Assembly: GCF_001984155.1 (NCBI RefSeq)
Contig: NZ_MTQO01000052.1
Coordinates: forward strand, 248,001 to 312,000
Source of the DNA: Actinosynnema sp. ALI-1.44
Lineage (GTDB): Bacteria; Actinomycetota; Actinomycetes; Mycobacteriales; Pseudonocardiaceae
Length of the DNA stretch: 64,000 bases
Direction of reading: 5' to 3'
A program made the translations under genes and the position numbers. Shown in pieces: positions 28,939 to 62,561 of the stretch; position 1 is the first letter of the stretch; every line of letters starts with the position of its first letter. A model generated the notes under the pieces. That model saw only the letters and a program-made list of their open reading frames with translations. It did not search any database and was not told where the DNA came from.

Positions 28939-31335
28939 TCACCTGTGCGTAGTCAGGGCCCTGAGGACTTCACGGGCCTCGGCACGGCACACCTCGCTCC
29001 ACCTGGCGAGTGACCTGGCAGCTTTCACCCGGATGTGCCACGGCGCGGTCTCGTCGTGCGCCACCTCGCGAGCGACGACGGCTGCTTTCTCCCGGTAGTC
29101 ACGGCGTAGTTCGGCCATCGCGGTCGCGGCTCTCAGACGCGTTCCTTGTGTGAGGTCGCGGTCATGTGTCATGTCGGCGAGGAATCTGGCGGCTTCGCTC
29201 GCGGCGATGTCGCCGATGGCTAGGAAGACCTGGATGCGTACCAGGGGATTCTCGGCTGTCCGCAGCCGTCGCAACCTGCGGAGGAGGTCACCGCGGAGGT
29301 CTGGCCTGGCCGTGGTCAACGCCCGAGCGGCATTCACCCGGGTGAGTGTCGGCGTGTCCTCGTCCGCGAGCATCGCCCGCAGGACCGGCACAGCGAGTTC
29401 ACGGCCGCGCTCGCCGAACTTCAGTAGGTCCCGCGCTGCCCGCCACCGCAGCGGACATCGACGTATCGACGTGGCGATGTCGTGCAGGATGTGGGCACCT
29501 TGGGCCCGGTCGGCGATGTCGTACTCGCTCAGCTTGTCAGCGGCGAGCCACCGGACGGCGGCCGAGGCGCGTGGGTCGTCGCGCATTGCCCGCGCGGGAT
29601 TCAGTCCGTCGTGCCCGCCCAGCGCGATACGAATCGTGAGTCTGTCCCTGTCCGAGGTCCGCTGATCCGCGACGACAGCACGCAGAACACCGACCATGGA
29701 CTCCGGGACGTGCGGCATCAGGTACAGCAACCACCGAGCCGCATCGAGTCGTTGTCGCCACGCACCACTGTCCGCCGCAGCCATCGCCTGGTCGATGACC
29801 CGTTGACGCACTGGACGACTCAGGTCGCACAACTCGCGTAATCCGTACCGTTCGTCCGTGCTGCTCATGTCCTCCAACAGGCGCAGCGCCTCGGGAATGT
29901 GCCGGGGCGAGAGCCCGGCCAACGCGACCGCGGCCCTCATCCGCTCGATCGGAGAAGTCTCCACCGCCCCAAGCGTTTCCCGGATCACCATCTCCGCTTC
30001 GCCTGCCAGCCGTGGATTGCCCCACACAGTGATGCCATCGACTCGGTCCCGCACTGGAAGAGTCGAATCGGCAAGCAACGAGCGCCTCGTGACCATAAAC
30101 GGCTTGTTTTGAAGACGCCGGGTGATTCCACTGAGCGTCGCAGCCCTCGTTTCCGGGTGAGCGGCGACGTTGAGTACCAACGCACTGTACTCAGGCGCAT
30201 CAAAGGAACAGACATAGGACAACCATCTCAGGCCGAGCTCGCGGTCATCGGGTGTGCTCTCGAAGCTGGACACGAAGTGCCGAAGCATTGCGGCAGCCCT
30301 CGGAGCGCAGGACGCATCCAGATCAGCCAGTTGGGCCGCCGCCACACAACGATCACTGACCGGCTGCCGCGCGTCGTCCAGAACGGCCTTGTGGATGTGG
30401 ACAGCCCAATCGACAGTGGCACGGTCGACTCCAGCCAGTGCGTAGGCGACGTCGGTGGACCAGTAGAAATCGAGGAACTCATCGCGGGCCTGCGCCCCCA
30501 ACTCCTCCAGCGCCTCTTCACGTGCGGCCTCGTGGTTGCCCGCAAGGAGAAAAGCCGCTTTGTCACGGACCGTTCTGGGAGCGTCCGGATCCGACATCAA
30601 TGTCCGTAGGCGCGGCACCACATTCGCCCCCAGCCTGGCCAGTTCGCTCACTCGTTGGCGCCACGAATACGCGGTCCCGTCGTGGTGGAGTCGCAACACC
30701 AGGTCGGCGGCGGTCTCGAGTTCTTGGGGCACCATGCGGACAAGGGTCACGGCAGCGTCGGCTCGTACCACCGAGTCCAGCACATCGTCGGCGACGATGT
30801 GACGCAGCCGGTCGACGATCTCCGGATCAGCCGGGTTCCCGATTCGCCATAACGCTTCGGCGATCGAGAGCACATCGCTCGCCGTCACATCCGAACGGCG
30901 AAGCCTCGAAAGAACCGCGTCGGCGAGCTCGGTTCGATGCACGGCGCTGAGCGCGGCTGTCAACCCGGACATCACGAACCTCAGCTGGTACGCAGGGAGA
31001 TCGTCCGAGCCGAGCATGTCGATGATCGCGGCAAACGCCAACTGGTGGTACTTCCTGCCAAGCAAGATGAGCCTGTTCGCCGCATTGCCCCGGAACGCCC
31101 CCTTGCGACTGGGGTCGTTGGCCACGCCGGTCATCGCCGAAGCGATGAAGTCACGGGCGCCGTCGTTGTCGGTCAACGACGGCCAGTCGTCATAGTCCTC
31201 CCAGGACGTTACCTCTTCGGGTTCCAGCAGTCCGGGCAGCCAATGTGCGGCGTCCTGCGCGTACTTCGTGCCGGTGTTCCGCAGGATCTGCCATGCCCGC
31301 GTCTGGACGGCGGGATCACTCGATGTTCCACCTGA
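28939..31335 (-). pseudogene. NACHT-HEAT fragment 4: long C-terminal HEAT array
   Basis: About 795 codons open without interruption, from SSDPAVQTRAWQILRNTG through TSWEDYDDWPSLTDNDGARD to the natural stop (REVLRALTTHR). A TTG at 31176 could restart translation. If any part is still expressed this is the longest intact piece, entirely helical repeats. Confidence 0.65.
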
Positions 31336-32350
31336 CCCGTGAGCATCCTCCGCAACGCCACCACGGCCGAGTCCCGGTACGGCTCACCCAATTCGGCGAG
31401 CCTGCCGAGCGCACCTGCCCGTTCGAACGACTCGCTGCGTGGGTCCTCAACCAGACCGAGGTAAACCCCCGCGGCCTCCGCTCGGTACTCACTGCCCAAC
31501 TCAGCGAAGGTCTGGGCCGCCCAGTAACGGTTGTTCGTGGTCGAGGACGGATCCGACAGTGCCTTGCGGAGCAGGTCGGCTGCCTGCACGCGCAGTCCCA
31601 GATCCGCCAGTGCCTCCGCGATGATGCGCAGGGCGTGCGGCCCCGGTGAGAACTCTGCCGCCATCGCACGCACAAGATCGGCTGCGACCTTCCGGTACTG
31701 CGGACCCAACTTGGCGAGGCCTGTTGCCGCTTTGGTGCGATGCATGGCACTGAACCGACAATCACCGGCTGCTTTGGCCAACGCGTCGGCAGCCTCAGCC
31801 AACTGGTCCGCTCCGAGCGCCGCCAACGCGAGTGCGGCATCTCTGAAGGGCGACAGCTCCGATCCGCCAGCGAGCACCGCACGGAACACGTCGGCGCACC
31901 TGTCGTGGAACTCGACCCCGATCTCCACCAGACCGTTGGCCGCTTCGACCAGGTCGCCATCCGGTGTCACAGGGTCATCGAGCAACGCCATCAGCGACTC
32001 GACCGCATAAGCACGGGCGGCGCCATCGAAGTTGGCCAGCACCAACGCCGCGTTCCGGCATTGCCGTGCGGTCGCGGCCGGGTCGGCGAGGACCGCTCGC
32101 AACCCCCGCTCGGCGGTTTCCCTTTCACCGCCACAATCCGACAGGGCCTCCGCCGCGCTGAGGCGGTGCCTGATGGCGATCGACTCGTCATCGACGACCT
32201 GTCGCAAGTGGGCAACAGCCTCGGCGGACTCGTCGCCGCGCAACCGTGTCGCCAGTGCCGTCGCGGCTTCGACACGGGACTCCCAAGGGCTTTCCGTTTC
32301 CCGCATGATCTCGGCAAGCCAGCTGCGATGCCCGGGTGATGTGCCGCCCG
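31330..32350 (-). pseudogene. NACHT-HEAT fragment 3: HEAT repeats
   Basis: Starts near RSWLAEIMRETESPWESRVE and gives about 330 residues of regular HEAT/PBS repeats (AATALATRLRGDESAEAVAH, DAALALAALGADQLAEAADA, RYWAAQTFAELGSEYRAEAA). The frame degrades after ALRRMLTG, where the next fragment takes over with SSDPAVQTRAWQIL. Confidence 0.65.
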
Positions 32351-33325
32351 GCTGGTTTGTTGCAGGATTCGCAAAGCGGGGTACTGGGTGGTTTTCGCCC
32401 ATGCTCTCGCGGTGGTCAGGAACGCGTCGACCACCTCGGTCGAAGCGGGGACATGTCCAGCGAGCAGTCGCGCAGCCAGGAGGTGTTCTTCGGCATTGTT
32501 GGCGCGCAGCCACCGGATCAGCACGTCGGCTTCGGCGGGGTGCAACCTTGTGAAGTGCAGGAGCACCGCTCGGGCGTACCTGCCGCGCTCATCGGGGCGC
32601 GCGGCGTGCAGCAGGCGCGCGAACTCGGGTTGCCCAGGGGCGAACTCGGTGGGCAGGAGACGGGCTTTCGCCGTGGCCGCGAGATGTTCGGCGAAGCTGT
32701 GGTGCAGGAAGCGCAAGTCGTCACCACGGCGGGTGACCGGGCCCACGGCTGCCAGACAGGTGACCAGATCTTCGCCCGGCGAGTCCGGCAGGTGCCGCGC
32801 CGCCCACTCCAGAGTCGCAGCCACCAGCGAGGTGTCGGTTTCCAGACGCACCACGCCCAGGTGCTCAAGCAACGCCCCGCAGGCCTGGTCGAGCGGGCTC
32901 GGCTCGTGAGAACGCGCGGATCGCAGGTACTTCAGATACACCTCGTACAGCGAATACTGGTTGTCCGGCAACGGGCGGTCGCCGTGCTGTTCGAAGATGA
33001 TCGCCGCGATCGTGGCCAGCAGGGGCACACGCACCAGTTCGTCGAGGTGCGCCGCGCGGATCTGCCGCACGAACCGCTCTCCCAGCGACTCGTTCTCGAA
33101 CCAGTTGACGGCGAACTGGCGCAGCGCTTCATGGTCGAACGGTTGCAGCTCGTACCGCGCCGCGCCGATCCGTTGCAGCGGCGCCAACGCCGAGCCCTCG
33201 ATGGGACGGGTCGTGAGCACGATCCGGTAGGGCGAGTTGTCGTCCGACGCCCAATTGGCCAGGACGTTGACGAGCTTGTCCCGTGCCGCGCTGTCCGCGA
33301 CTTCGTCGAGGCCGTCGACCAGCAT
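32340..33325 (-). pseudogene. NACHT-HEAT fragment 2: Walker B and NACHT helical region
   Basis: Begins with ATG 33325 one codon after the TGA, in the same frame, and reads LMLVDGLDEV, LTTRPIEG, then winged-helix-like and helical segments down to RAWAKTTQYPALRILQQTSR. Past about 32340 the frame runs on to 31991 as Arg/Pro-rich nonsense while the true sequence continues in the next frame. Confidence 0.65.
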
Positions 33326-33328
33326 CAG

Positions 33329-34018
33329 TCAACGGCAGCCCGCGACACGTTCCCGCACCACGGCCGGTTCGACCTGCTCGGCCAGCAGTGCGCCGTACTC
33401 CACGTGCACGCACTGCGCGACCGCCTCGGGGAACGGCACGGACAGACGCGTGGCCAGCTCGCGTGCCGTCAGCCGCAGTGGCACCACCGGTTCGGCCAAG
33501 GGGTCCGGTCCGAAACTCGCCCACCGCGCGGCCACGTCCGCCGCCAGCCGCAACGACAGGGTCGACTTGCCCTGGCCTGGGCCTCCGGTGACCAGCAGGT
33601 GGTCGTCTCCGTCCAACGCCGCCCTGACAGTCCGGGACGGCGGTCGGACAGCCAGGCGGGCCACCGGCGGGTTCGGGGAGTCGATCAGCTGCCCTCTGCT
33701 GTCGAGGATAGGTTCCGGACGTGTCTGTTCCGCCGGTTCCTCTGTCCCGGTCCCGAGATCCTGGCGCACGTACACCGTCGCCAACGACGGTCGCCGTGCC
33801 CCGGGCAGCCGGTACGGCAAGTCCTGCGCGGCTTGGACCTGCGCACGCAGCAAGGACCGGATCGGCGACGGGAGTTCGGGCAGGTCCGCCCAGTCGGCCG
33901 GGGGTGGCACCGGTGGCTTCCGCTCCGGTCCCACCGCGTGGAAGTGGACATCGCCGTGGATCTCGCCCGCCTGGACGAAGGGGCCGTGGAACGTGCCATC
34001 CATCCGGTTGCCCGACAC
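33329..34018 (-). pseudogene. NACHT-HEAT fragment 1: RHIM-like motif and Walker A
   Basis: 229 codons up to the in-frame TGA. Holds the N-terminal motif, the linker and the P-loop, but ends just before Walker B, so alone it cannot hydrolyse ATP. Confidence 0.7.
33938..33991 (-). other. RHIM-like bacterial amyloid signalling motif (coding)
   Basis: Encodes residues 10-27, FHGPFVQAGEIHGDVHFH. A hydrophobic-Gln-x-Gly core (VQAG) followed by a Gly-Asp turn and alternating His/hydrophobic residues matches the style of NLR-associated bacterial amyloid motifs (BASS3/PP type related to animal RHIM). Such motifs recruit an effector carrying a matching copy. Assignment is by eye. Confidence 0.5.
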
Positions 34019-34034
34019 ATGACCCCTTCGCGCA

Positions 34035-34071
34035 CGGTCGGATAATCGTGCCACAGTCAGGTTATGGATCT
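34035..34071 (+). repeat. Shared promoter/leader block, copy 1
   Basis: 37 bases from CGGTCGGATAATCGTGCCAC to the ATGGATCT start of the GNAT/ATP-grasp gene; 33 of 37 are identical to 36517-36553. GATAAT could be a -10, with the start codon 18 bases after it. It lies in the 45-bp gap that also drives the NACHT gene on the other strand. Confidence 0.65.
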
Positions 34072-35815
34072 GAGGGCGGCGCGTCCGGACGAAGCCGTGG
34101 CGCTCAGCGAACTGACCATGCGTTCCAAGGCGCATTGGGGTTACGACGCGGCGTTCCTGGCCGACTGCCAGGACGTGCTCCGGCTTCGGCCTGACGACGT
34201 CGTCGCACGGCGCACAGTGGTCGCCGAACGGGACGGCGCGGTCCTCGGTGTGGCCACTTTGGACGGTGAGCCGCCCGGCGGGGAGATCGGCCTGCTGTTC
34301 GTGGCACCGGATGCGATCGGACGGGGCGTCGGGCGTGTGCTGTACCGGCATGTGATGGCCGAGGCGGCGCGGCTGGGGTTCACTCGGGTGCGGATCGAGT
34401 CCGACCCCCACGCCGAAGGGTTCTACCTGGCGATGGGCGCGGAGCGGCAAGACACGAACCGCGGCACGCCTGTGCTGGTGGCGTGGCCGGTTCGGCCGGA
34501 GCCGTCGTGGTCGGTGGCCTGGAGCGGGGCCGGATCGACCGTTCACGTCGGCAATGTCGCCGAGTTCAACGGCCAGTTCACCGGCCGGGTGCGGGGTCCG
34601 GACCACTACTCCTGCATGGCCGCGTTCTGCGGACGGAAGCCCGCGATGATCGTTCTGCCGCAACAGGTCGACGATTGGTGGGTGCGGGACACCGGTGCCG
34701 TGCTCGGTTGGGGCGACGTGGAGGTACACAGCGGAGTCGCCGATGACGGCCGCGTGTCCAGTGCGATCGTCGACCGGCCGGATCTGTTGGAACGTCTCAC
34801 TTCCCGTGGGTCCGCAGTGCTGCCGTGGGGCCGGACGGCTGCTTTCGAACCGATTTCCCCGTCACCCGGTGGCGTGCTGGCGGCCATCAGCCGGTACGAG
34901 TCGAAAAAACACGGGCACGCGCTGTTCAGCGGGTTGGCTGCCGAAATCGACGGGATCATGGTCCCCTTGCAACGGCCTGCCGGGTCACGCCGGGCGCTCG
35001 CCAGGGAACTCGCCAGCGGGGCAAAGGTCGTGCTGAAGCAGGAGTACGGCGTCGGCGGGTCCGGAACGCTGATCGTGTCCCCTGGGGCGCAACGGATTGG
35101 CGCACTGACGCGGCGGTGGGCGGGCAAGCTGCTCGTGGAGGAGTACGTGGACGGATCGGGCCCGTACCGCAACCCCACCTTCGACGCCGTCGTCGACGCC
35201 GCCGGTGAGGTGCACCCGGTCGGCACCGGGCTGATGGACATCGACGGAACCAGCTACCGCGGCGTCACCGTCGGCCCCGGTGTCCTGCCCGAACGGCTCG
35301 CCGACACGGCCGCCGAGTTCGGGATCGCGCTCGGCCACGCCTTGGCCAGGGAACGCTATCGAGGGTGGTACGACGTCGATTTCGTCACCGACCAGTCGGG
35401 CCGCCTCGCCCCGGTCGAGATCAACCTGCGGCTCACCGGACCGGCCGTCGCGTTCCACATCCAAGCCGCACTCGACCGCGTGCGCGGGGGCCACCACCTC
35501 GTCCGCACGATCGACTGGTTACCGCTCGGTGCGCGGCTGCCCTCGGAGGCGCTGCGCGCCCACGTCGCCCGCGTTGCCCGACAGTGCCAGGAGATCGGCG
35601 CGACTCCGCTGGTCACGATTCCGACAGCGGCATTCGATCCCGTCCCCTACCTGGGTGTGGCGATCGCGGCCCGCACCAGCGCGGCACTCGCGGAGGCGGA
35701 AACCGCCATCCGCGGCGCGAACGCGGCACTGAGCGAGATGTTCGGCGACCTGGGGGTCAATCCACGCGACGCTCGCGCAGCGCGAAGGCGACGAGCACGG
35801 CCGCGGCGATCATGA
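34064..35815 (+). CDS. GNAT acetyltransferase / ATP-grasp ligase fusion
   Basis: A 583-residue two-part enzyme. Residues 1-145 are a GNAT N-acetyltransferase (GEIGLLFVAPDAIGRGVGRV with the acetyl-CoA loop GRGVGR, then GFTRVRIESDPHAEGFYLAM). The rest is an ATP-grasp ligase with a pre-ATP-grasp domain (YSCMAAFCGRKPAMIVLPQQ), the ATP-binding VVLKQEYGVGGSGTLIV, hinge KLLVEEYVDGSG and Mg-binding APVEINLRLTGPAV (Glu, Asn). The product is probably an amide or peptide bond on a small molecule, with acetylation by the first domain; substrates unknown. It is divergent from the NACHT gene (45-bp gap) and shares a promoter block with the phosphorylase gene. The last 59 bases overlap the convergent gene and encode an Arg-rich tail. 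Confidence 0.75.
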   Translation: MDLRAARPDEAVALSELTMRSKAHWGYDAAFLADCQDVLRLRPDDVVARRTVVAERDGAVLGVATLDGEPPGGEIGLLFVAPDAIGRGVGRVLYRHVMAEAARLGFTRVRIESDPHAEGFYLAMGAERQDTNRGTPVLVAWPVRPEPSWSVAWSGAGSTVHVGNVAEFNGQFTGRVRGPDHYSCMAAFCGRKPAMIVLPQQVDDWWVRDTGAVLGWGDVEVHSGVADDGRVSSAIVDRPDLLERLTSRGSAVLPWGRTAAFEPISPSPGGVLAAISRYESKKHGHALFSGLAAEIDGIMVPLQRPAGSRRALARELASGAKVVLKQEYGVGGSGTLIVSPGAQRIGALTRRWAGKLLVEEYVDGSGPYRNPTFDAVVDAAGEVHPVGTGLMDIDGTSYRGVTVGPGVLPERLADTAAEFGIALGHALARERYRGWYDVDFVTDQSGRLAPVEINLRLTGPAVAFHIQAALDRVRGGHHLVRTIDWLPLGARLPSEALRAHVARVARQCQEIGATPLVTIPTAAFDPVPYLGVAIAARTSAALAEAETAIRGANAALSEMFGDLGVNPRDARAARRRRARPRRS

Positions 35816-36494
35816 GCGTGACGTTGAACCCGTAGACGAGGGCGGCCTGGCGGCCCCAGTCGGTCTTGGCCGCGAGCCGGTAGAAGTTGTCCTGCGGCCA
35901 CCACGCGACGAGCAGCCAGACCACCGACAGGTGGGCGAGCGTGGTCAACCACGGCGGACGCCCCATCCGGGTCAGTCGCCCGCGGCCCAGGAGCAGGAAA
36001 CCGATCCCCAAGCCGAGTGCCAGGCATTCCGCCGCGTAGAGGCCGGTGAAGAGCCCGGCGTACGGCTGGGGCACCACCGACAGATCCGTGGAGCCCGGCC
36101 AGAAGACGTTGGTCAGCACGAACGCGAGGAACCCGATGAACACCGCGAGGACCAGCACCAACCCCGCCAGCGGCCGGTCGCCCATGTCGAACAGGGCTTC
36201 CTTGCCGCCCGTGGCTCGGCCGGGCAGCACCGGGAGCGGAAGACCGCTGCGGTCCAGCTCACCGGAACTGGTGCGGGGCAGGGTGTCCACCGGGATCACG
36301 GCCTGCGGGATCCGCTTGGCGGGTAACCGGGGCTGCGACAGGAACGCCCGGATCCCAGCCGGATCGGCCGGGCCGGTGGTGACCACGTAGGCGACGAGCG
36401 TGTGCTTGCGCGGCCCGGTCCGGATCTTGGCCACCACGCACGCCCGTACTTCCGGGTGCTTGCGAAGTTCCGCCTCGACATCGTCGTACGCCAT
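35757..36494 (-). CDS. ANL-type C-terminal domain fused to membrane helices, catalytic Lys lost
   Basis: A 245-residue protein starting at ATG 36494. Residues 1-100 look like the C-terminal subdomain of adenylate-forming (AMP-binding) enzymes: DDVEAELRKHPEVRACVVAK, RKHTLVAYVV, IRAFLSQPRLPAKRIPQAVI. The hallmark PxTxxGKxxR is TLPRTSSGELDRSG, with Glu in place of the catalytic Lys, and there is no adenylating N-terminal domain. The rest has four hydrophobic segments (LVLVLAVFIGFLAFVLTNVF, YAGLFTGLYAAECLALGLGI, LTTLAHLSVVWLLVAWWP, LVYGFNVTLMIAAAVLVAFA). It may be a binding or scaffold protein at the membrane; function unknown. It is divergent from the phosphorylase gene. Confidence 0.7.
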   Translation of the reverse strand: MAYDDVEAELRKHPEVRACVVAKIRTGPRKHTLVAYVVTTGPADPAGIRAFLSQPRLPAKRIPQAVIPVDTLPRTSSGELDRSGLPLPVLPGRATGGKEALFDMGDRPLAGLVLVLAVFIGFLAFVLTNVFWPGSTDLSVVPQPYAGLFTGLYAAECLALGLGIGFLLLGRGRLTRMGRPPWLTTLAHLSVVWLLVAWWPQDNFYRLAAKTDWGRQAALVYGFNVTLMIAAAVLVAFALRERRVD

Positions 36495-36516
36495 GTCACC
36501 ACGCCCCCTCGCCCAG

Positions 36517-36553
36517 CGGTCGGACAATCGTGCCACAGTCGGGACATGGATCT
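36517..36553 (+). repeat. Shared promoter/leader block, copy 2
   Basis: CGGTCGGACAATCGTGCCAC to the ATGGATCT of the phosphorylase gene, 33 of 37 bases identical to 34035-34071. As in copy 1, a second gene starts divergently 23 bases away. The remaining flanks are also loosely alike. Confidence 0.65.
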
Positions 36554-37301
36554 TCCGCTGCTGCAGTTCGATTCGACCGGTGCGGGCATGTACTCCCCGT
36601 CGGCGCCGAAGTTGTCGGAGCCATGGCCGGAGAGAGCGGTGCTGTGCTTCTTCCGTGAGCAGATCGCGGCGCTTGTCGAGCGGGGTGCGGCGAGGCGGGT
36701 CGGCCGGTTCACCGTCGAGATGGGCGGCCACGACATCTACATCACCGAGGACTCCGCCGGTGAGCGCGTCGCGCTGTTCCACCCGACGGTTGGCGCGCCG
36801 ACTGCCGTGCACCACCTGGAACGCGCGATCGCCGGTGGCGTGCGCAGCTTCGTGGTCTGCGGCGGCACCGGGGCGTTGGTGGAGCTCGCCATGGGGCACG
36901 TCGTGGTCCCGTCCGGCGCGATCCGGGACGAGGGCACCTCGTTTCACTACGCCCCACCGGGTGTGAGCATCGACACCGACCCGGACGTGGTCGACGCGCT
37001 GGTGGCGTTGCTCGAGGAGCAATCGGTTCCGCACGCGGTCGGCCTGACCTGGACGACCGACGCGCCGTTCCGGGAAACCCCCGCCATGGTGGCCGCCCGG
37101 CGTGACCAGGGCTGCCTCCTCGTCGAGATGGAGGCGTCCGCGTTGCTCGCGGCGGCCCGGTTCCGCGGTGTGAGGCTCGGGCTGCTGCTGTATGCGGGCG
37201 ACGACCTGAGCGGCGGGAAATGGGACCTGCGGAACTGGACCGCGAGCGACGCCCGTGCCCGGCTGCTGCCGCTCGCGATCGAGGCCACCGGCCGGTTCTA
37301 G
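36546..37301 (+). CDS. Nucleoside phosphorylase-like protein (PNP/UDP family)
   Basis: A 251-residue protein of the purine/uridine phosphorylase superfamily. The central motif GVRSFVVCGGTGALVELAMG (phosphate/ribose site), a VVVPSGAIRDEGTSFHY strand and LLVEMEASALLAAARFRGVR (the Met-Glu that binds ribose) are those of the family. The expected reaction is phosphorolysis of a nucleoside. The N-terminal phosphate loop is not obvious (PLLQFDSTGAGMYSPSAPKL), so activity or substrate may differ. ATG 36546 is set by the shared promoter block. PNP-type domains recur next to NACHT NTPases in conflict systems, which makes this position notable. The stop shares bases with a remnant on the other strand. 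Confidence 0.75.
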   Translation: MDLPLLQFDSTGAGMYSPSAPKLSEPWPERAVLCFFREQIAALVERGAARRVGRFTVEMGGHDIYITEDSAGERVALFHPTVGAPTAVHHLERAIAGGVRSFVVCGGTGALVELAMGHVVVPSGAIRDEGTSFHYAPPGVSIDTDPDVVDALVALLEEQSVPHAVGLTWTTDAPFRETPAMVAARRDQGCLLVEMEASALLAAARFRGVRLGLLLYAGDDLSGGKWDLRNWTASDARARLLPLAIEATGRF

Positions 37302-51436: not shown

Positions 51437-51742
51437 AGCGCTCCCTGCGCGAAGCACACCGGCGACATGACGCTCCTTGTGTGAATGGAAAACGTTCGGG
51501 TACGGACGGAATAGTAGACGGGCTACGTACGGAGACCTGCGGCGGGTACTCCCCTGTCGAACCGTCCGAACGGTTCCGTCCGTGAATGAAGGAAGAACAC
51601 ACCCCTGTCCAGCCGCGTCCGGCTCGCAAGGGCCGAAAGGATGACTACGCTGAGGCAAGGGACGAGGCAAACCAGCGGGAACACCGTTTCGCGTGGCAAG
51701 ACGTGGTTCCCGCACGAGCAGGGAAAGTGGGAGCACAAGCCC
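51437..51742. promoter_or_regulatory. ctaB/tkt divergent intergenic region
   Basis: 306 bases with no supported gene. They must hold the ctaB promoter and the promoter of the tkt-tal-pgi-zwf-opcA operon. An open plus-strand frame from 51641 joins tkt in frame but lacks conserved protein pattern before GTG 51743. No clear operator was found. Confidence 0.5.
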
Positions 51743-53839
51743 GTGTCCGTAGACGACATCACCCGCCTGACCACGGCAAACGTTCCGGCCGACTGGACGG
51801 ACCTCGACAAGCGGGCGGTGGACACGATCCGCGTGCTCGCCGCCGAGGCCGTGCAGAACGCCGGCAACGGCCACCCCGGCACCGCGATGAGCCTCGCGCC
51901 GCTGGCCTACACGCTGTTCCAGCGGACCATGCGGCACGACCCCGCGGACGCCGACTGGGTCGGCCGGGACCGGTTCGTGCTGTCGGCTGGCCACTCCAGC
52001 CTGACGCTGTACCTGCAGCTGTTCATGTCCGGGTACGGGCTGGAGATCGAGGACATCGAGCAGCTGCGCAAGTGGGGCTCCAAGACCCCCGGCCACCCCG
52101 AGCACGGCCACACCCGCGGTGTGGAGATCACCACAGGCCCGCTGGGCCAGGGCCTGGCTTCCGCGGTCGGCATGGCGATGGCCGCCCGCCGCGAGCGCGG
52201 CCTGTTCGACCCGGACGCCGCGCCGGGTGAGAGCCCGTTCGACCACCAGATCTACGTGATCGCCTCCGACGGTGACATCGAGGAGGGCGTGACCTCCGAG
52301 GCGTCGTCGCTCGCCGGGACCCAGCAGCTGGGCAACCTGACGGTGATCTACGACGACAACAAGATCTCCATCGAGGACGACACCGCGATCGCCCTGTCGG
52401 AGGACACCGCCAAGCGCTACGAGGCCTACGGCTGGCACGTCCAGGTCGTGGAGAGCGGCGAGAACGTCACCGGCATCATCGAGGCGCTGGACGCCGCCAA
52501 GGCCGAGACCGGCCGCCCGTCGTTCATCCTGCTCCGCACGATCATCGGTTTCCCCGCCCCGACCAAGCAGAACACCGGCAAGGCGCACGGCGCCGCGCTG
52601 GGTGACGACGAGGTCGCCGAGGTCAAGAAGATCCTCGGCTTCGACCCGGCGAAGAAGTTCGTGGTCGAGCCGGAGGTGCTGGCCCACGCGCGCGAGGTCG
52701 TCAAGCGCGGCGAGCAGGCCAAGGCCGAGTGGCAGCCGAAGTTCGACGCGTGGGCGAAGGCCAACCCGGAGCGCAAGGAGCTGTTCGACCGGCTGGTGGC
52801 CCGCCAGCTCCCCGACGGCTGGGACGCCAAGCTGCCGAGCTGGGAGCCGGACGCGAAGGGCATCGCCACCCGCAAGGCATCCAACGAGGTGCTCAACGCG
52901 GTCGCCGACGTGCTGCCCGAGCTGTGGGGCGGCTCGGCCGACCTGGCCGAGAGCAACAACACCACGATGAAGGGCGCGGACTCGTTCGGCCCGACCTCGA
53001 TCGCCACCAAGGAGTGGAACGCCACGCCGTACGGCCGTACGTTGCACTTCGGCGTGCGCGAGCACGCGATGGGGTCGATCCTCAACGGCATCGCGCTGCA
53101 CGGCCCGACCCGCCCGTACGGCGGCACCTTCCTGGTGTTCAGCGACTACATGCGGCCCGCGGTCCGGCTCGGTTCGCTGATGAAGTCCCCGGTGATCTAC
53201 GTGTGGACGCACGACTCGATCGGTCTCGGCGAGGACGGCCCGACACACCAGCCGATCGAGCACCTCGCCGCGCTGCGCGCGATCCCCGGTCTGACCGTCG
53301 CCCGCCCGGGTGACGCCAACGAGACGGCGGCCGTCTGGAAGGCGGCGATCGAGCGGCCGAACGGCCCGATCGGGATCGCGCTGACCAGGCAGAACCTGCC
53401 GGTGCTCGAAGGCACCGACGCCGAGGGTGTCGCCAGGGGCGGTTACGTGCTTGCCGACGCCTCGAACGGGGACCCCAAGGTGGTGCTCATCGCCACGGGC
53501 TCGGAGCTGCAGATGGCGGCCGAGGCCAGGAAGGTTCTCGAGGCCGACGGCGTTGCCACGCGTGTGGTCTCGATGCCGAGTGTGGAGTGGTTCGACGCGC
53601 AGGACCAGGCGTACCGCGACCAGGTCATCCCGCCGTCGGTCCGCGCTCGTGTGTCCGTCGAGGCAGGCATCGCGCAGCCGTGGTACCGCTTCATCGGCGA
53701 CGCCGGTGAAGCGATCTCGATCGAGCACTACGGCGCGTCCGCCGACTACCAGACTTTGTTCCGCGAGTTCGGTTTCACGACCGAGGCCGTTGTCGACGCG
53801 GCACGGCGCTCGCTGCAGCGAGTGGAGGAAGGCAAGTGA
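51743..53839 (+). CDS. tkt: Transketolase
   Basis: A 698-residue thiamine-diphosphate transketolase that moves two-carbon units in the non-oxidative pentose phosphate pathway. Motifs: [38 protein letters not shown], thiamine diphosphate motif [20 protein letters not shown] with [32 protein letters not shown], and [23 protein letters not shown] 51743 follows GGGAGCAC. It is the first gene of a five-gene operon; the stop overlaps tal (GTGA). Confidence 0.95.
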
Positions 53840-60165: not shown

Positions 60166-60186
60166 GTTGAGCGAGTCAGACTCAAT
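60166..60186 (+). promoter_or_regulatory. HAIR element (HspR site) before lon
   Basis: GTTGAGC-N7-ACTCAAT matches the HspR-binding inverted repeat CTTGAGT-N7-ACTCAAG except at the outermost bases and one inner base, with the exact seven-base spacing. In Streptomyces lon is a member of the HspR regulon, so heat-shock control is expected here. Confidence 0.75.
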
Positions 60187-60211
60187 CTTCTTCGTAGAGG
60201 GTGTGACAGCC

Positions 60212-62561
60212 GTGAGCGAGACGTTGAACCTCCCCGTTCTGCCGCTGGATGACGTCGTCGTGCTGCCAGGGATGGTCGTGCCGATCCGGCTTTCCGAGGC
60301 CGACGCGCGGGCCGCCATCGACGCGGCGCAGGCCGCGGGCCAGTCGAAGATCCTGCTGGTCCCGAAGCTGGGACGGGAAGTACGCCAAGGCGGGCACGGT
60401 CGGCGAGATCGAACAGATCGGCCGCCTGCCCGGCGGGCAGAAGGCCGCCGTCATCCGCGGCATCTCCCGTGCCCGGATCGGTGCCGCCACCAGCGGCCCC
60501 GGCGCGGCACTGTGGGTCGAGGCCACCGAACTCGACGACGTCGTCGACGAGCGGGCGCGTGAGCTCGCCAAGGAGTACAAGAACCTGACCACCGCGATCC
60601 TGCAGCGCCGGGGCGCGTGGCAGGTCGTCGACCAGGTGCAGCAGGTGAGCGATCCGGCACAGCTGGCCGACCTGGCCGGGTACGCGCCGTACCTCACCGA
60701 GGAGCAGAAGCTGTGGCTGCTGGAGACGGCGGACGTCACCGAGCGGCTGGCCCAGCTCGTCACGTGGGCGCAGGAGCACATCGCCGAGCTCGACGTCGCC
60801 GAGACGATCAACAAGGACGTCAAGGAAGGCGTCGAGAAGCAGCAGCGCGAGTTCCTGCTGCGCCAGCAGCTCGCCGCGATCCGCAAGGAACTGGCCGAAC
60901 TGGACGGCAAGCCCGCGTCCGAGGAGCAGGACTACCGCGCCCGCGTCGAGGAGGCGGACCTGCCGGAGCACGTCGCGAAGGCGGCGCTCGCCGAGGTCGA
61001 CAAGTTGGAGCGCACCTCGGAGCAGTCACCCGAGGTCGGCTGGATCCGCACGTGGCTGGACACGGTCCTGGACATGCCTTGGAACAACCGCACCGAGGAC
61101 AGCTACGACATCAAGGGCGCGCGGGCGGTGCTCGACGCCGACCACGCGGGCCTGGACGACGTGAAGGAACGCATCGTCGAGTACTTGGCGGTTCGCCGCC
61201 GCCGCGCTGACCGCGGCCTCGGCGTCGTCGGTGGACGGCGCAGCGGCGCGGTGCTCGCGCTGGTCGGGCCGCCCGGCGTCGGCAAGACGTCACTGGGTGA
61301 GTCCGTCGCACGGGCGATGGGACGCGAGTTCGTCCGGGTCGCGCTGGGCGGTGTCCGCGACGAGGCCGAGATCCGGGGCCACCGCCGGACGTACGTCGGC
61401 GCGCAGTCCGGCCGGATCGTGCGTGCCATCAAGGAAGCCGGTTCGATGAACCCGGTCGTGCTGCTCGACGAGATCGACAAGGTCGGCGCGGACTACCGCG
61501 GCGATCCGACCGCCGCGCTGCTGGAAGTGCTCGACCCGGCGCAGAACCACACGTTCCGCGACCACTACCTGGAAGTCGAGCTCGACCTGTCCGACGTGGT
61601 GTTCCTGGCGACGGCCAACGTGCTGGAGTCCATTCCCGGCCCGTTGCTCGACCGGATGGAGCTGGTGCAGCTCGACGGCTACACCGAGGACGAGAAGGTC
61701 GTCATCGCCCGTGACCACCTGCTGCCGCGTCAGCTTGACCGGGCGGGCCTGACCACCGACGACGCGAAGTTCGACGACGAGGCGTTGCGGTTGCTGGCTG
61801 CCGAGTACACCCGCGAGGCCGGTGTCCGCCAGCTGGAGCGGGCGATCGCCCGGGTGCTGCGCAAGGTGACCACCAAGCTGGCGCTCGGCGAGGACCCCAC
61901 CTCCGTCCACATCGGACCGGCGGATGTCCGGGAGTACCTCGGCAGCCCGAAGCACAAGCCGGAGTCCGGCGAACGCACCTCGGTGCCCGGTGTGGCAACG
62001 GGTCTCGCGGTCACCGGGATCGGCGGGGACGTGCTGTTCGTCGAGGCTTCACTGGCGGACAAGGAAACCGGGCACACCGGCGTGACGTTGACCGGGCAAC
62101 TGGGCGACGTCATGAAGGAGTCGGCGCAGATCGCGCTGTCGTACCTGCGGTCGCGCGGCGCCGAACTCGAACTGCCGGTCGGTGATCTGTCGGAGCGCAA
62201 CATCCACATCCACGTTCCGGCCGGCGCGGTTCCGAAGGACGGTCCGAGCGCGGGTGTCACGATGACGACCGCGTTGGCGTCGCTGCTGTCGGGCCGCCCG
62301 GTGCGCTCGGAGGTCGCGATGACCGGCGAGGTGTCGCTGACCGGCCGGGTGCTGCCGATCGGTGGCGTGAAGCAGAAGCTGCTCGCCGCCCACCGCGCCG
62401 GGCTGACCACGGTCCTGCTGCCCAAGCGCAACGAGCCGGACCTGGAGGACGTGCCGGAGACCGTGCTGAAGGAGCTGACCGTGCACCTGGTCAGCGACGT
62501 CCGCGAAGTGCTGGACCTGGCGCTGGAACCGGCCACGTCCACGGCCGCGATCGCCGCCTGA
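60212..62561 (+). pseudogene. lon: ATP-dependent protease Lon (La), with a one-base frameshift
   Basis: About 780 residues of Lon. The first 53 codons from GTG 60212 read SETLNLPVLPLDDVVVLPGM and end LLVPKL. The rest continues in another frame from DGKYAKAGTVGEIEQIGRLP to the end. The joint CTGGGACGGG (60368-60377) has one G more than the expected CTGGACGGG, so a single insertion in 60370-60372 breaks the gene. All later parts are intact: Walker A GPPGVGKTSLGES, Walker B PVVLLDEIDKVG, the catalytic Ser in PKDGPSAGVTM and Lys in GGVKQKLLAAHR. Because the remainder shows no decay, a sequencing error or a very recent mutation is likely. A HAIR element controls it and a hairpin ends it. Confidence 0.88.

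Follow-up and report, generated by a model that had tools for sequence, protein, structure and literature searches.

The window analysed here is a stretch of 64,000 nucleotides from Actinosynnema sp. ALI-1.44 (positions 248001-312000 of contig 49 in the source genome G000, 11.7 Mb in 54 contigs). It contains a disrupted NACHT-HEAT gene on the minus strand that runs from a GTG start at 34018 to a stop at 28939 (28939..34018), as the preliminary description had placed it. The intact, syntenic orthologue in G027, a genome of the same genus, encodes 1716 aa in a single frame (locus L029). In the features tested, the window gene is NLR-like and belongs to the NACHT class of STAND NTPases. From its sequence, the window copy is best read as a recently inactivated pseudogene of a lineage-wide bacterial NLR.

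Anatomy of the NACHT-HEAT gene

All parts of the gene lie on the minus strand. Translation from the GTG at 34018 gives MSGNRMDGTFHGPFVQAGEIHGDVHFH, followed by a conserved linker, by Walker A and by half of the NACHT domain before a TGA ends this first frame. Beyond this codon the original frame continues to ~32325, and is followed by a second frame (~32336-31341) and a third (~31330-28939). The amyloid-type motif at the N-terminus (33929..34012) has the family consensus ~N...G.V.G..VQAG.I.GDVHFH. The NACHT domain (33089..33598; G000:C49:281089-281598) contains Walker A (GGPGQGKST) and Walker B, and PF05729 matches its read-through above the cut-off (37.5 bits vs 26.7, E 1.3e-8; 29.5 bits in L029), with one TGA inside the match. 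The second piece (32325..33325) carries the remaining NACHT, a winged-helix region and the start of the solenoid, with the fold taken from an intact relative. The third (31341..32336) covers the middle of the HEAT-type solenoid with 74% identity to L029, and the fourth (28939..31176, its frame open up to ~31330) encodes the 745 aa of the C-terminal HEAT solenoid.

HEAT_2 was detected above its cut-off in this last piece (30.3 vs 27.7 bits). Structure prediction of these 745 residues, which are the part covered by the solenoid model from the window sequence, gave an all-helical solenoid with 44 helices, 0 strands and a mean pLDDT of 92.7. The two solenoid pieces aligned to L029 comprise ~1,118 codons (332 + 786), in agreement with the >1,000 residues of HEAT repeats reported earlier. 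In the predicted model of an intact relative, the arrangement of NACHT and the winged helix resembles that in NLRC4, NLRP3 and NOD2. Profile searches and structure prediction thus recovered both the NACHT domain and the HEAT solenoid of the preliminary description, and the gene has the features of a NACHT STAND protein, i.e., a NACHT profile with Walker A and B, a winged helix after NACHT, and C-terminal superstructure-forming repeats.

The likeness to the three animal NLRs lies in the modelled NACHT plus winged-helix arrangement, whereas the repeats here form a HEAT-type solenoid and not leucine-rich repeats, no CARD or PYD was seen, and identity over the aligned parts is 13-18%. The protein shares the NACHT core with bNACHT proteins and EruA, with weak similarity to EruA (NF058535), at 18.5 bits in one piece and 16.3 bits in another. 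Identity with EruA was rejected, as these scores are far below the equivalog cut-off of 1000 bits and the intact L029, L031 and L055 did not match at E 0.01. Apart from EruA, the defence-profile libraries yielded only hits to P-loops and a marginal one to RT_UG21 (E 0.023).

Comparison with L029 confirmed the three lesions noticed earlier. An in-frame TGA stands just ahead of the Walker B strand (33329..33331), a one-base frame slip leaves the window copy 1 nt short near 32325..32326, and 97 nt are deleted at 31318..31320, where the frame changes. The other five indels relative to L029 are all multiples of three. With its first piece cut off immediately ahead of the Walker B strand, the window copy cannot work as it stands. 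Programmed frameshifting and stop read-through were rejected, as intact relatives are read in a single frame and one lesion is the 97-nt deletion.

Distribution of the family and its N-terminal motif

Of the 249 Pseudonocardiaceae genomes searched, 45 (11 of 46 genera) match the 745-aa HEAT piece at E 1e-10 or better. A profile scan of genome contigs, based on an alignment of 16 sequences, retained 78 loci. In ~50 of them the match starts within the first 50 residues and extends to about residue 1710; the others share mainly the NACHT half. The full-length loci are nearly all titled Pseudonocardiaceae; the remainder are one from Catenulispora and two titled Nocardia and Rhodococcus (L150, title doubtful). 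Among the 61 rows of a tree of the NACHT region, 52 carry the N-terminal motif, 8 have a helix-turn-helix (HTH) in its place (L048, L055, L058, L059, L066, L068, L143 and L152) and 1 has neither. The starred branches require at least two exchanges between HTH and motif, and HTH_31 scored above its cut-off in both HTH-form members scanned.

The motif is conserved across the NACHT-HEAT family. The core tetrad of RHIM is (I/V)-Q-(I/V/L/C)-G. The window motif reads VQAG and does not match it, and the tetrad positions vary among relatives, four of which (L035, L120, L144 and L231) read VQVG and match. A conserved N-terminal motif of putative amyloid type is supported, whereas the preliminary description's term "RHIM-like" is loose.

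We ran a profile of 20 receptor-side motifs on the whole genomes G000, G027, G064 and G183. Besides NACHT-HEAT proteins, it matched (by eye) the N-termini of other STAND-like proteins and of one kinase-like protein, and the extreme C-terminus of small proteins. G183 had 16 matches at E 1 or better, judged by eye to be N-terminal on several STAND-like proteins and the kinase-like protein (L196, 4811-5944), which is reminiscent of RIP kinases. In two Lentzea loci (L246 and L247), a hydrophobic, possibly membrane-spanning segment was seen by eye after the motif.

A candidate partner encoded at a distance

The small protein with the motif at its end is an orphan of 114 aa in the source genome (G000:C41:59259-59597), with a hydrophobic first segment; three such proteins had no Pfam family above cut-off. 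A profile built from four of them had matches at 1e-5 in 129 of the 249 genomes of the family (33 of 46 genera); in the class as a whole, 21 of 394 genomes matched at 1e-8. The best-scoring 30 copies all have the motif at the C-terminal end, where most orphan copies read VQAR or VLQAG. Profiles of the receptor and effector motifs matched one another (98.3%, E 1.9e-14), a comparison that is not fully independent because the first four effector sequences were found with the receptor motif.

A motif shared between the N-terminus of an NLR and the C-terminus of an effector is a feature of BASS 1-10, the bacterial amyloid pairs of NLR and Bell proteins (Dyrka et al. 2020; PMC7889193, PMC8086366). 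BELL domains are described as small helical bundles with a hydrophobic helix and a C-terminal motif, encoded by adjacent genes (PMC7889193). The likeness extends to the shortness of the motif, the hydrophobic first segment of the small protein and the occurrence in filamentous actinomycetes. The motif here differs from the BASS3 peptide (PMC8086366, Table 2), which has VQVG, as do the four relatives above. The pairs in these accounts are adjacent or overlapping, whereas here adjacency was seen at one locus. In Amycolatopsis azurea (L039, L124), the orphan gene lies directly downstream of NACHT-HEAT in convergent orientation. No convincing adjacent partner was found for the window gene.

The orphan was detected in 28 of 38 genomes with the motif-type NACHT-HEAT gene, in 1 of 7 with the motif-less form and in 100 of 204 that lack the gene. 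Fisher tests of the motif-type genomes against the other two groups gave p 0.007 and 0.005 (kinship ignored), and any NACHT-HEAT vs none gave p 0.07. Outside Lentzea, it accompanied the motif-type gene in 25 of 28 genomes.

In all 11 intact pairs, dN/dS (the ratio of nonsynonymous to synonymous divergence) was highest at residues 890-1400 (0.32 to 0.72), compared with 0.07 to 0.30 in the NACHT bin (130-560). Individual values are approximate, because some members recur among the pairs and several pairs have a synonymous divergence above 1. A peak in the solenoid is the pattern expected of a sensor.

Given the domain order, the NLR-like predicted fold, the conservation of the motif and its presence in the orphan, the faster divergence of the HEAT part and the lesions, all observed here, we favour at roughly even odds (about 0.5) a reading in which this STAND sensor would template an unlinked Bell-like effector in trans, the window copy being a recent pseudogene. 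The HEAT solenoid of intact relatives most likely holds the NACHT/winged-helix core closed and senses a ligand derived from an invader or from stress. Binding would release the core for nucleotide exchange and oligomerisation, and the oligomer would gather the flexible N-terminal motifs. The stacked motifs would template the matching C-terminal motif of the remotely encoded Bell-like protein, which would then act on the membrane and arrest or kill the cell. All of these steps are inferred, from the sensing of a ligand and the formation of oligomers to templating by amyloid, coupling in trans and the action on the membrane, and a part in phage defence is suggested by the class.

Several observations weigh against this reading. 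The co-occurrence fails in Lentzea (3 of 10), leaves kinship aside and includes broken copies, and among the presences counted two are weak (G045 and G244, ~6e-6) and one (G231) holds a stop. Sensor and orphan motifs showed no co-variation within the 11 genomes compared (p 0.28). A pattern search of the window and of 13-20 kb around 40 homologues brought up no convincing motif-bearing neighbour. Its reach was limited, as it recognised the motif of only 23 of these homologues and missed one adjacent case found later; its two hits in a 433-aa frame, at L052 and L056, look like chance. Nor did the 25 largest clusters of neighbouring genes from 52 loci contain an adjacent gene conserved between genera, if synteny within Lentzea and loosely placed enzymes are set aside. 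The one adjacent pair is only mildly unexpected (~0.04 expected by chance), 8 of 61 tree rows have an HTH where the motif would be, and the apparent likeness of the orphan to Bell proteins is drawn from a published description.

In one alternative, NACHT-HEAT signals by itself or to partners other than Bell-like proteins, the motif serving to oligomerise it or to recruit other motif-bearing proteins, and it does not work as a pair with the orphan. The wide spread of the motif (as in G183), its occurrence in Lentzea on STAND-like proteins and ahead of hydrophobic segments (both judged by eye), the lack of co-variation and the absence of the orphan from most Lentzea genomes are all consistent with it. 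When an orphan specific to Lentzea was sought with profile A6, the motif turned up on STAND-like proteins and on proteins with membrane segments, and by eye no Bell-like protein was seen among the rows printed, some loci being without a row. We nevertheless regard this alternative as unlikely, given the strictly terminal motif of the 30 best-scoring orphans, the positive co-occurrence and the adjacent pair.

A second alternative, suggested by the HTH form of the same core, is a large NACHT/HEAT ATPase that regulates transcription or development and is not an immune sensor. The HTH_31 matches and the at least two exchanges in the tree point in this direction, as does the position of the gene in G000 and G027 beside what we presume to be suf genes. 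HEAT-centred divergence is unlike a core regulator, and neither the patchy presence (45 of 249 genomes) nor the frequent breakage of the gene fits one; of the 53 loci examined, the window counted, 10 hold a stop or need more than one frame, and their lesions differ (L054 is altered only in its last 45 residues, and L049, L235 and L237 are remnants or fragments). We consider a regulator quite improbable.

Extending the trans-templating reading to the family, we tentatively suggest, at less than even odds, a one-to-many amyloid relay in Pseudonocardiaceae. An unlinked Bell-like executor, usually present in one copy per genome, would be triggered in trans by dispersed sensors that share its motif, with NACHT-HEAT proteins and their fast-evolving solenoids as one arm. 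Sensors could be gained, recombined or lost, as in the window, without touching the executor, and could swap the motif for a DNA-binding domain. Receptor-to-effector relays are known from fungi and animals, and the sequences here suggest a bacterial version. Bacterial amyloid NLR systems have so far been described as local gene pairs. If the relay holds, bacteria would share with plant and animal immunity the logic of many sensors to one executor, and the small orphan, present in about half of the family genomes searched, would be that executor. The HEAT-centred divergence would offer a handle on what such receptors recognise.

Coupling in trans is not new in kind. In the published conflict systems coupled by effector-associated domains (EADs; Kaur et al. 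2020, PMC7159879), NTPase and effectors have a module in common, and some of its copies lie at other sites in the genome. They resemble the present case in this small module and in the distance of some effectors; they differ in that EADs, as described there, are folded domains, whereas the motif here is apparently an unstructured stretch of ~25 residues. The general list of Pfam matches of L029 at E 0.1 included no EAD family. In the titles and abstract openings among the literature matches listed, there was no account of this family or of trans coupling by an amyloid-type motif.

Age of the lesions and the surrounding locus

Unique amino-acid changes in the window copy and the orthologue numbered 108:93, 106:97, 101:99 and 106:82 with four outgroups, and accelerated evolution of the broken copy overall was not seen (chi-square 0.02 to 3.06). 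Taken piece by piece, the last one had changed faster with two of the outgroups (4.3 and 4.45) and the first more slowly with one (4.45). The dN/dS between window copy and L029 was 0.15 for the motif plus NACHT, 0.24 for the middle and 0.36 for the last piece. Because the overall rate of change is near normal, inactivation was probably recent. Of the two possibilities raised in the preliminary description, new decay or mis-sequencing, the 97-nt deletion and the near-normal rate favour recent decay; the one-base lesion alone could be an error of assembly, because two other one-base slips relative to G027 occur in the window. That all three lesions are sequencing or assembly errors in a gene intact in the strain would agree with these slips and with the near-normal rate, but is quite improbable, since 97 nt are missing at a single site, a separate in-frame stop stands at a conserved place, and 31 of the 36 G027 frames that match the window (those passing a composition filter, not every gene) map in one frame, stop-free.

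The remaining five frames comprise the two slips, one match upstream of a gene start and two doubtful frames. One slip, near 60372, lies in a plus-strand gene (~60167-62561) that looks like Lon, and places its first 88 residues in another frame. The other, near 51706, lies in a plus-strand frame (~51586-53839) over which a 1118-aa antisense frame is also open, so that either strand may be the coding one.

Identity per kb to G027 across 29 to 34 kb was 74, 66, 74, 82 and 83%, the lowest in the 62 kb shared; the rest mostly has 82 to 98% identity, but drops to 77-79% at 1-3 kb and to 77% at 59 kb. Along the gene, synonymous divergence from G027 was 0.62, 0.75 and 0.90, compared with 0.31 and 0.46 for the GNAT/ATP-grasp and phosphorylase genes upstream and 0.085 to 0.15 for three outer genes. 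Raised synonymous divergence over 28939-37300 between closely similar flanks suggests the exchange of a diverged allele.

The divergent upstream gene (34064-35815) encodes a GNAT acetyltransferase in one frame with a weakly ATP-grasp-like region. Between it and the NACHT-HEAT gene lies a 19-nt element with one variable base (34037..34055), a second copy of which is found between another divergent gene pair (36519-36537). We rejected the element as the mark of a regulon, with just two sites (at most 1 mismatch) in each of G000 and G027. In G027, the element is also present at the two matching places.

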